Shown piece by piece: positions 2,951-4,211 of a stretch of DNA of 5,603 nucleotides. Made by a program: the position numbers and the translations under genes. Under the pieces are notes generated by a model. The model saw only the letters and a list, made by a program, of their open reading frames with translations, was not told the origin of the DNA and did no database searches. Positions within the stretch are counted from its first letter, which is position 1. Each line of letters opens with the position of its first letter. The DNA is from Bacteroidia bacterium (GTDB lineage: Bacteria > Bacteroidota > Bacteroidia > Flavobacteriales > NORP286): contig JAESTI010000086.1 in assembly GCA_016763665.1 (NCBI GenBank), positions 1 through 5,603 of the forward strand, given 5' to 3'.

Positions 2951-2973
2951 ATTAACTTGAAAAACAACACTAT

Positions 2974-3049
2974 GTCACACTGAGTTTATCGAAGTGTTCT
3001 TTCCCAAACTTCAATAACCATAACCAGTCTTCGATAAACTCAGACTGAC
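2974..3049. repeat. 76-bp palindromic repeat element, copy A
   Basis: Left arm 2974-2994 and right arm 3029-3049 are inverted and match at 19 of 21 positions, with a 34-base centre. The arms begin GTCACACTGAG and end CTCAGACTGAC. The element is 67/76 identical to copy B at 3390-3465, and all arm bases are identical between copies. The sequence resembles the abundant TCACACTGAG...TCGAAGTG dispersed repeat that I recall from many Bacteroidota. It ends 19 bases before the endonuclease start codon, so that gene's leader, and perhaps its promoter, lie in or beside it. As RNA it could form a long hairpin downstream of the glycoside hydrolase gene. Confidence 0.9.
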
Positions 3050-3068
3050 CAATTCAATTAGTTCAAGA

Positions 3069-3377
3069 ATGACTAACGATAAATATACTGTATATATTCT
3101 TAAATGCTCGGATGATTCTTATTATACTGGTATTACCAATGATATTGATAGAAGAATGTTTGAGCATGAAACAGGAGCAATTGGAAGTAGCTATACCTGG
3201 AACAAGAAACCATTAAAACTTGTTTTTCAAGAACATTTTCATGATCCAAATCAAGCTATTAAATTTGAAAAGCAGGTTAAGGGCTGGAATAGAAAAAAGA
3301 AAGAGGCTCTAATTCAGGGAGATTGGGATGAAATTATTCGATTATCTAATCTAAAAAACACTACAAAGTCACACTGA
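3069..3377 (+). CDS. Small GIY-YIG endonuclease domain protein
   Basis: The protein has 102 residues, nearly all of it one GIY-YIG nuclease domain of the UPF0213/YhbQ-like type. The signature is present as VYIL (8-11) and YYTGIT (18-23), with Tyr9 and Tyr19. RRMFEH (28-33) supplies the probable catalytic arginine (Arg29), and Glu67 in KFEKQVKGW (65-73) is the expected metal-binding glutamate. RKKKEALI (75-82) completes the family pattern. All expected active-site residues are present, so it may be an active nuclease. There is no DNA-binding domain beyond the core. Older annotations call such proteins UvrC-like, but this is only the nuclease module. The gene is flanked by copies of one palindromic element, and its last codons and stop (S-H-stop, 3369-3377) lie within a partial repeat unit. 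Target and role are unknown. Confidence 0.92.
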   Translation: MTNDKYTVYILKCSDDSYYTGITNDIDRRMFEHETGAIGSSYTWNKKPLKLVFQEHFHDPNQAIKFEKQVKGWNRKKKEALIQGDWDEIIRLSNLKNTTKSH

Positions 3378-3384
3378 GATTATC
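3368..3384 (+). repeat. Truncated repeat unit overlapping the endonuclease stop codon
   Basis: GTCACACTGAGATTATC matches the start of the left arm of copy B (3390-3406) at 16 of 17 positions, exactly 22 bases upstream of it. The unit stops there and lacks the TCGAAG end. It supplies the Ser-His-stop end of the endonuclease gene. Its left flank (AACACTA) also occurs a few bases before copy A, which suggests it may be the older boundary of the downstream repeat. Confidence 0.75.
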
Positions 3385-3389
3385 TGCCA

Positions 3390-3465
3390 GTCACACTGAG
3401 TTTATCGAAGTGTTTCTTCCCAAACTTCAAAAACTAAGGTTAGTCTTCGATAAACTCAGACTGAC
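3390..3465. repeat. 76-bp palindromic repeat element, copy B
   Basis: Left arm 3390-3410 and right arm 3445-3465 are the same bases as in copy A; the 34-base centre matches at 25 of 34. It lies between the convergent endonuclease gene (plus) and barrel gene (minus), so its RNA hairpin could end transcription from both sides, though neither side has a clear U-tract. Both copies have the same orientation 416 bases apart and so bracket the endonuclease gene as direct repeats of a palindrome. Confidence 0.9.
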
Positions 3466-3479
3466 ATATTATCGAAAGG

Positions 3480-4211
3480 TCAGAAATGAAAATTGATCGA
3501 GAAGTTATTAATGATCGGTTCCATCTCTACATTGATCTCTGAATAGGTTTTGTTGCTTACTTCGTTGCTTATATTTGTAAGCGTAGTAGTACCAGTATTA
3601 TAAATAATATTCAACCCACCTTGGATGTTGAAAGATATCCGATTACTTAATTTATAATTAATGCCTGCAAAAGGAACAATTCCTACTTGGATATTTTCAG
3701 TTGAACTTTCAGCTGTTTCTTTGATGAATAATCCTGATTTTGGAACAGTATCAGGTCTATAGGTCGTAAATGTTGTTTTAGATTCGTTTTGGCCTCCGAG
3801 AATATCAAATCCATAAAAAACGGTGAAGTTATTCATTGGTCTTTGCCATTCTAAACCTAACTTTATTATGGACAATCCATTGATTTCATTAGAAATAAAG
3901 TTTGTTGTGTCACCAGCATCATTTTGGCTAACAGCCGTAGCAATGTCATTTGGTGTGAATACAAAGCCAAGTCTTATGGCCTTTCCTGATTTGAAATGAT
4001 GCTTGAATTTGGATTCAAACTTAGGCGTGGCCTGCCCACCTAAAAAGAATATCGCCCATTGAGAAAGGTTAAGATCTATTTCATTATATTTTCTTGCAGT
4101 GTCTACAAATGTCGTGTCATTAGAAGGCTCAATAACTGAATCTTGGGCAAAAGAACTAAGGGATGTAACGCTTAGCATCATGCAAGTAACATAAATGAAA
4201 ATACGTTTCAT
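3480..4211 (-). CDS. Secreted, probably outer-membrane beta-barrel protein
   Basis: The 243-residue protein has a signal peptide (1-22, probable cleavage SFA|Q) and no lipobox. After a polar linker (about 23-45) come alternating hydrophobic/polar stretches typical of amphipathic beta strands: AIRLGFVF (78-85), IIKLGLEWQ (115-123), FTVFYGFDILGG (129-140), IQVGIVPFAGINYKL (174-188) and ISFNIQGGLNIIYN (192-205). The last strand is NNFSINFHF (235-243) with a terminal Phe, as in many outer-membrane barrels. I do not recognise a specific family. The start is the ATG that gives a complete signal peptide. A weak TAATTTAG -7-like box lies on the minus strand at 4234-4241, without a well-spaced -33 box. 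Its last 47 bases are echoed at 2904-2950. No T9SS tag is present. Confidence 0.82.
   Translation of the reverse strand: MKRIFIYVTCMMLSVTSLSSFAQDSVIEPSNDTTFVDTARKYNEIDLNLSQWAIFFLGGQATPKFESKFKHHFKSGKAIRLGFVFTPNDIATAVSQNDAGDTTNFISNEINGLSIIKLGLEWQRPMNNFTVFYGFDILGGQNESKTTFTTYRPDTVPKSGLFIKETAESSTENIQVGIVPFAGINYKLSNRISFNIQGGLNIIYNTGTTTLTNISNEVSNKTYSEINVEMEPIINNFSINFHF

Follow-up and report, generated by a model that had tools for sequence, protein, structure and literature searches.

The window, the whole 5,603-nt stretch of DNA analysed, probably carries a small REP-type element system, made up of a single-domain GIY-YIG endonuclease and its cognate tagged hairpins and driven by the nuclease. Judged by sequence comparison, small GIY-YIG nucleases are widely paired with tagged REPs, and the window is one case of this. 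An earlier note had suggested that such a nuclease acts on, or spreads with, the palindromic repeat family that flanks its gene. This suggestion is supported by the enrichment of the repeat at related genes and by its presence at nearly all of them, and the pairing appears wider than first proposed, taking in several repeat types, several phyla and the CGTC REP superfamily. That the nuclease acts specifically on its flanking repeat type is very probable; that it mobilises these repeats, or once did, is somewhat favoured. A large class of bacterial repeats has long lacked a known partner that spreads or processes it, and the GIY-YIG nuclease is probably that partner.

The nuclease gene and its two repeat units

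The locus comprises the following features, in the order of the window:

2973..3050, strand not applicable: Unit A, REPIN-like inverted pair of tagged hairpins (window repeat comparison and folding)
2973..2997, plus strand: Arm A1, TGTC-A-CACT-GAG-TTTAT-CGA-AGTG-T (arm reading of the window)
3026..3050, minus strand: Arm A2, GGTC-A-GTCT-GAG-TTTAT-CGA-AGAC-T (arm reading of the window)
3069..3377, plus strand: GIY-YIG single-domain endonuclease, 102 aa (PF01541, E 8e-17; 814 homologues; UPF0213/Slx1 fold relatives)
3367..3383, plus strand: truncated third arm, whose CACTGAG is the source of the nuclease stop codon TGA at 3375-3377 (arm reading)
3389..3466, strand not applicable: Unit B, second inverted pair (window repeat comparison and folding)
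3389..3413, plus strand: Arm B1, AGTC-A-CACT-GAG-TTTAT-CGA-AGTG-T (arm reading of the window)
3442..3466, minus strand: Arm B2, TGTC-A-GTCT-GAG-TTTAT-CGA-AGAC-T (arm reading of the window)

The two 76-bp copies described in the earlier note (2974-3049 and 3390-3465) were recovered, with 67 of 76 positions identical and no differences between copies in the outer arms, and the spacing of 19 bases between the end of copy A and the ATG of the nuclease gene was confirmed. The 102-residue gene between them is intact: a domain scan of six window ORFs found PF01541 in the ORF at 3069-3377, and a Y1_Tnp domain in none of the six. A 27-row protein alignment shows no variation at Y9, I10, Y19, R29, H33 and E67 and almost none at G21, which bears out the claim of preserved catalytic residues insofar as Y9, Y19, R29, H33 and E67 are catalytic, as in I-TevI and UvrC. 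The partial unit said to contain the stop codon is the truncated arm. This arm apparently encodes the protein end SH (3367-3377), and the end HPSTGSG of the protein at another locus, L080 (9965-10294), is also apparently encoded by an arm; such arm-encoded tails may recur among the predicted proteins. The predicted structure of the window protein (pLDDT 86) has as its nearest solved structures UPF0213 1zg2 and 1ywl, followed by Slx1 (E ~1e-3). No match was found in the phage records searched, and NCBIfam gave no family for the four proteins queried.

On this reading each palindrome of the window consists of a smaller unit, a tag with its own hairpin, present twice in inverted orientation. The tags of the four full arms are TGTC, GGTC, AGTC and TGTC, none being GTAG, and the stem has A-T as its first pair in all four and C-G or G-C as its second, with five pairs followed by a GA/GA mismatch. 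The two arms of one unit differ in two outer stem bases, which are paired within an arm and unpaired between arms. Folded as 78-nt single strands, units A and B gave z scores of -5.5 and -5.1, with none of 200 shuffles as good in either case; single arms evaluated with nearest-neighbour DNA energies showed no advantage over shuffles (z -0.2 and -0.3), and the GA/GA step may add stability that the energy model misses.

Outside units A and B, 2904-2950 and 3480-3526 form a 47-nt direct repeat of 77% identity, and both copies, translated from the minus strand, look like an outer-membrane protein terminus (INF.F stop). The unit may thus be bordered by a second copy of the 3' end of the gene at 3480-4211, or the resemblance may be chance. 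The product of 1288-2913, beside the unit, has 541 aa, a Por secretion tail domain and a glycosyl hydrolase match below threshold.

Tagged hairpins beside related genes

Relatives were collected by scanning a protein profile of 27 rows once over GTDB species genomes and keeping the best 80 of at least 558 confirmed relatives, a set of best-scoring contigs and not a random draw; 29 loci from whole genomes, duplicates of the 80 being left out, brought the number to 109. The loci are not independent: they were drawn from the top-scoring members of the family, and 16 of them occupy a single orthologous position in Flavobacterium-type genomes. With no prior assumption on repeat sequence, each of the nine most enriched 10-mers within 350 bp of the gene came from the arm; they were present at 27-34 of 80 loci, where 0.08-0.29 were expected. 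They derive from TGTCAnnCTGAGcgnagTCGAAG; one of them, for which 1,505 far segments predict 0.24 loci, is present at 34 of 80. A match to the strict type I pattern was located no more than 600 bp from the gene in 68 of the 80 loci, and type I arms number 172 in the 40.9 kb within 250 bp of the gene versus 9 in 1.04 Mb beyond 2 kb, a density about 480 times as high; 105 of them fall in the 21.2 kb immediately upstream and 67 in the 19.7 kb immediately downstream.

At least one of three scans placed an arm within 600 bp in 107 of the 109 loci (type I pattern 80, general plan 95, long-loop form 35), and the two misses, read by eye, hold an arm with T for A after the tag (L101) and an imperfect arm upstream (L041). 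The earlier note had named two outcomes that would speak against it. What was found is a repeat of the same plan at these 107 loci rather than orthologues devoid of repeats and, rather than hundreds of copies with no enrichment, 21-87 type I arms in six Bacteroidota genomes (counted with two slightly different patterns), with an extreme cluster at the gene. Its mention of other small GIY-YIG genes beside TCACACTGAG repeats proved correct. Beside some genes the arms form local tandem arrays, as at L006 and L052. One contig, titled Rickettsiales bacterium (L021), has neighbour genes with 74-95% protein identity to Marinoscillum (L042), and its bin label is probably wrong.

Loci without the type I pattern revealed a general arm plan, consisting of tag, A, four stem bases, GAG, loop, CGA and four complementary bases. 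Scanned over 119 loci (the 109 and ten weaker paralogue loci), sites of this plan within 600 bp had at least three of the four stem pairs in 310 of 351 cases and all four in 259 of 351; beyond 2 kb, 12 sites with at least three pairs were found in 1.04 Mb. GTCA, GAG and CGA are required by the search pattern itself, so that only the four stem pairs count as evidence. Among 91 distinct arms with six-nt loops, taken with no pairing filter, 90.3% of cells are paired, and covariation reaches 0.658 against 0.204 when shuffled (0/500) and 0.149 in the best slid register, with two of five covariation measures lying within the shuffles (double-change pairs 488/500, further pair types 143/500). In long-loop arms the loop itself often looks hairpin-like by eye. 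In 41 head-to-head pairs (gap of at most 60 nt), 146 of 164 outer-base comparisons are complementary inside an arm, as against 10 of 164 across the two arms, so that selection seems to be on the arm's own hairpin. All but one of the pairs (40/41) combine arms with unlike outer stem bases; their ends seem systematically unlike, as expected of left and right ends, and it seems that either long perfect palindromes are avoided or the two ends are distinct. These comparisons indicate that the arm, a TGTC-type tag with a covarying hairpin, is the real unit and that two inverted arms make a REPIN-like unit. As read from these loci, genes of the clade are flanked by tagged hairpins composed of TGTC, CGTC or CCTC, usually an A, and a covarying stem, in the window GAG-loop-CGA.

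In the available parts of a survey by Di Nocera, De Gregorio and Rocco (2013; PMC3733652), REPs are split into those tagged GTAG, which are served by RAYT, and those tagged CGTC, which 'apparently lack a dedicated transposase'; the CGTC tag is often TGTC or CCTC, and no tyrosine transposase gene flanked by CGTC repeats is reported there. The same parts define CGTC REPs by a stem of 8-9 bp with complementary A/T at the first and second positions, describe head-to-head dimers (hetero in some families), and place Neisseria dRS3 and the rickettsial RPE-4/6 in the superfamily, which is reported in Bacteroidetes too; which enzyme, if any, handles it is the survey's closing question (PMC3733652). Because these REPs were reported without a transposase, GIY-YIG genes in plasmid-collection records were examined, with a Rhizobium gene whose product is 31% identical to the window protein as second query (42 records). 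Fifteen loci were read, truncated Sinorhizobium medicae hits and near-identical strains being left out.

Hairpins tagged CGTC, TGTC or CCTC were found by scan within about 600 bp, on one or both sides, at 14 of the 15 proteobacterial loci, which include Sinorhizobium meliloti, Azospirillum lipoferum, Aeromonas, Photobacterium, Sphingobium and Neisseria; they number 51 in 18.5 kb near the genes versus 6 in 150 kb (three of the same records). The fifteenth, in Novosphingobium, has by eye CGTC-GCCCCGTG-CTTGA-CACGGGGC on both sides and was missed because the stricter scan required A after the tag; a looser scan gave at least two hairpins at 15 of 15 loci against 24% of shuffles. The Neisseria locus says less, since repeats of this kind (dRS3) are very common there. 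With stems of 8-9, loops of 4-5 and mostly a CCA tail, the proteobacterial repeats, compared by text, fit the description in the available parts of the survey (PMC3733652). They also adjoin the same enzyme family, an adjacency proposed here as a mark of membership, separate from the published definition.

Planktothrix and Spirosoma also carry their own TGTC hairpins (6 and 5 loose-scan hits, shuffled mean 0.3; none by the stricter scan), and in Methylobacterium arms were read by eye, the loose scan giving 0 and 2, no more than shuffles. Eight GIY-YIG loci of YazA-like, YhbQ-like, operon and other types showed no excess of tagged hairpins, with 0/8 by the stricter scan and at least two hairpins at 2/8 by the loose one, against 15% of shuffles. 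On a tree of 57 proteins, in which the Methylobacterium labels rest on the reading by eye, the presence of tagged hairpins needs two changes (four under the initial labels) versus 9.3 when shuffled (0/500), most simply explained by one large hairpin-bearing clade with one loss in two Sphingomonas operon genes.

Correspondence of nuclease and arm types, and movement of the units

A nuclease tree was built from 109 proteins and that of the window, with arm labels for 105 loci and the window (L101, L107, L111 and the window labelled by hand). Arm class changes 28 times on it versus 54.3 times when shuffled (0/200), a comparison to be read with the tree's 92 columns and weak resolution and with the fact that relatedness alone also clusters labels. 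Types III and TC6, of seven loci each, form one group apiece (support 86 and 99), and the small classes TT6, GT6 and GT5g, eight loci together, do not cluster. Whole-genome counts follow the same lines among the 28 of 49 nuclease genomes that were typed, two of these as a further type. Median numbers of type I, II and III arms are 17.5, 1.5 and 2 in type I nuclease genomes (n=12), 1, 8 and 2 in type II genomes (n=7), and 3, 1 and 17 in type III genomes (n=7); exceptions are two of the seven type II genomes with more type I than type II arms and one with equal numbers, and one of the seven type III genomes with 20 type I arms versus 4 of type III. Nuclease clades, as far as these sequences go, tend to carry their own arm type.

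Four genomes combine one strong nuclease match each (173-181 bits) with ten weaker hits, and type I arms were found at none of the ten weaker paralogue loci. That these paralogues are free of arms was ruled out by other tagged hairpin types at L085-L090. L085 has arms of the type TGTC-ATTCAGAG-CGCAG-CGAAGAAT on both sides, its two loose-scan hits being chance stems distinct from this repeat. The loose scan gave 13, 5, 1, 2 and 2 hairpins at L086, L087, L088, L089 and L090, with a shuffled mean of 0.53; TGTC-ATTTC-GACCGAAAGGA-GAAAT is an example from L087, and the count at L088 by itself is not outstanding against shuffles.

Type I arms number 35, 21, 87 and 44 in four genomes, where reversed-pattern controls gave 2, 0, 0 and 0. 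Among 149 genomes drawn evenly from Flavobacteriaceae, the family of one Flavobacterium genome, a nuclease match at E 1e-28 or better occurs in 49 and is single-copy in 35 of these. At least five arms of types I, II and III together are present in 42 of the 49 genomes with the gene versus 27 of the 100 without, with medians of 17 versus 1 (Mann-Whitney p 2e-14, the species not being independent). Arms and gene are also found apart: 16 of the 100 genomes without a strong match have at least ten arms, and 3 of the 49 nuclease genomes have fewer than three by the patterns used. Ten genomes carry five or more type I arms and lack a strong match; the matches in nine of them are all weaker or broken, and the tenth has no match. 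In G131 a broken GIY-YIG gene lies between two arms (C20:113044-113554), and the genome holds 40 arms by the three patterns.

Genomes with the gene also carry dispersed copies, both single arms and head-to-head pairs, and inverted pairs of ~69 bp are ~90-94% identical across many sites and species. The search for empty sites proposed in the earlier note was fruitful for the repeat: at one orthologous intergenic site, three Flavobacterium genomes carry the unit, one lacks it and another retains a remnant. No target-site duplication or excision product was recognised in the sites compared. The gene itself appears mostly inherited in place, since 16 of 17 Flavobacterium-type nuclease loci share one position. 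A Brocadia and a Nitrospirae genome each contain three type I arms in total, every one of them next to the gene. The left flank of the Brocadia locus is shared by all 11 genomes of the genus, and its right flank runs into another repeat; among the matches listed, none of the other ten genomes has the nuclease stretch at this site, and one of them has a 75% nuclease match elsewhere. The conserved left flank, with no listed match at the site in the other genomes, argues against a misbinned contig and for a joint arrival of gene and arms. At L126 (340-520) an inverted pair lies within another Flavobacterium repeat (GCCACAGATTAAA...AATCTGTGGC), and L205 is a copy of that host repeat, in another genome, without the inverted pair.

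Known systems, proposed mechanism and rival explanations

By analogy, the GIY-YIG nuclease and its tagged hairpins work like RAYT-REP with an unrelated enzyme and are no member of that system. Both have a dedicated enzyme gene flanked by its own type of tagged hairpin, with the repeats dispersed (here in relatives) as single and head-to-head copies; both mostly have one strong enzyme copy per genome, an enzyme type that tends to match the repeat type, and a gene that is mostly vertical. In contrast, RAYT is an HUH/Y1 tyrosine transposase with the tag GTAG, whereas the window enzyme is a GIY-YIG endonuclease and the linked tags are TGTC, CGTC or CCTC. We infer that the nuclease is the functional counterpart of RAYT for TGTC/CGTC-tagged REPs. 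UPF0213 proteins (YazA and YhbQ; COG2827) share the single-domain fold but differ in the lack of hairpin excess at the eight loci of this and the operon type, several of which are in operons. The GIY-YIG nuclease domain is likewise common to Slx1, the UvrC N-terminal domain and I-TevI-type homing enzymes; these have extra domains, and we know of no repeat partner of this kind for any of them. CGTC REPs, as described in the available parts of the survey (PMC3733652), share the CGTC/TGTC/CCTC tag, the hairpin and the head-to-head dimers, but are reported there without a dedicated enzyme. The window arms fall outside the CGTC families described in those parts because of their 5-bp outer stem, GA/GA mismatch and absence of a CCA tail (PMC3733652), and two of their four tags are the superfamily variant TGTC, the others being GGTC and AGTC.

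In the mechanism proposed, the nuclease would recognise its own tag and hairpin in single-stranded or extruded DNA and cut at or near the tag. The inverted pair would be the transferred unit, copied or moved to new intergenic sites, sometimes as a whole gene with flanking arms, and host repair and replication would complete the transfer. Recognition of a folded hairpin with a tag is an economical idea, since one compact domain leaves little room for a separate DNA-reading module. We lean, if only slightly, towards the broader joint reading that small GIY-YIG endonucleases are the missing enzymes of the whole TGTC/CGTC/CCTC REP superfamily, across Bacteroidota, Cyanobacteria, rhizobia and Neisseria (dRS3), and constitute a second and independent system of REP transposition; there a GIY-YIG enzyme, in place of a tyrosine transposase, would recognise tag and hairpin and copy inverted pairs.

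Slx1 is a nuclease for branched DNA, and an Slx1-like, structure-specific repair enzyme might instead remove or resolve repeat cruciforms, with the repeats spread by something else and kept beside the gene as its regulators or through local repair duplication. The Slx1 structures that come next after UPF0213, the vertical inheritance of the Flavobacterium-type gene and the tandem arm arrays would all suit such an enzyme. We nevertheless consider it unlikely, since the matching of clades to hairpins, with several nuclease-hairpin pairs in one genome, is unexpected of a general cruciform enzyme, and the Brocadia and Nitrospirae genomes hold the pair with no other type I copies. Those two genomes, with type I arms solely beside the gene, also count against a parasitic homing-type gene inserting into pre-existing repeats as harmless landing sites, as do the greater abundance of arms where the gene is present and the single strong copy in 4/4 genomes with 21-87 arms and in most gene-bearing Flavobacteriaceae. 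GIY-YIG is a known homing-endonuclease family, and the arm does supply the gene end in the window and at L080, but we regard this explanation as distinctly improbable.

Movement of the repeats by RAYT or another Y1 transposase, with the GIY-YIG gene as passenger, is already disfavoured and very improbable. Y1_Tnp proteins occur in 10 of 14 genomes tested, but the four without them are all arm-rich, no arm lies within 1.5 kb of any of 30 Y1_Tnp loci examined (a subset of the matches), and the survey, in its available parts, reports no gene for a tyrosine transposase with CGTC repeats at its flanks (PMC3733652). Ordinary intergenic terminators or neutral repeats lying beside the gene by chance would account for strong hairpins in intergenic positions, as in the window; as the main explanation this is refuted, and given next to no weight, by the several-hundred-fold enrichment at one gene family, the reversed-pattern controls and the eight YazA/YhbQ/operon-type loci without hairpin excess.

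In the open-licence literature, no title or abstract start linked GIY-YIG to REP, RAYT, REPIN, dRS3 or palindromic or interspersed repeats, and the arm sequences searched as text gave no related paper among the matches listed; the repeats are partly known already, and the enzyme partner is, as far as this literature shows, undescribed. If the proposal is true, it would be, to our knowledge, the first transposase-like role of a stand-alone bacterial GIY-YIG protein of this size, and it would account for several dispersed intergenic repeat families in Bacteroidota and proteobacteria. It offers a candidate enzyme, found beside its own repeat types in several phyla, for the question on the CGTC superfamily raised in the available parts of the survey (PMC3733652), a question now directly testable with one small protein and short oligonucleotides.

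Three weak GIY-YIG relatives of another family (28-35 bits; L091, L092 and L093, ~1250-2000) each lie beside a tRNA gene (Val, two Asn and Arg), with a partial tRNA copy on the gene's other side whose longest exact repeats are 16, 28 and 27 nt, respectively. They raise the question of whether this type is a small GIY-YIG element that uses tRNA genes as sites.
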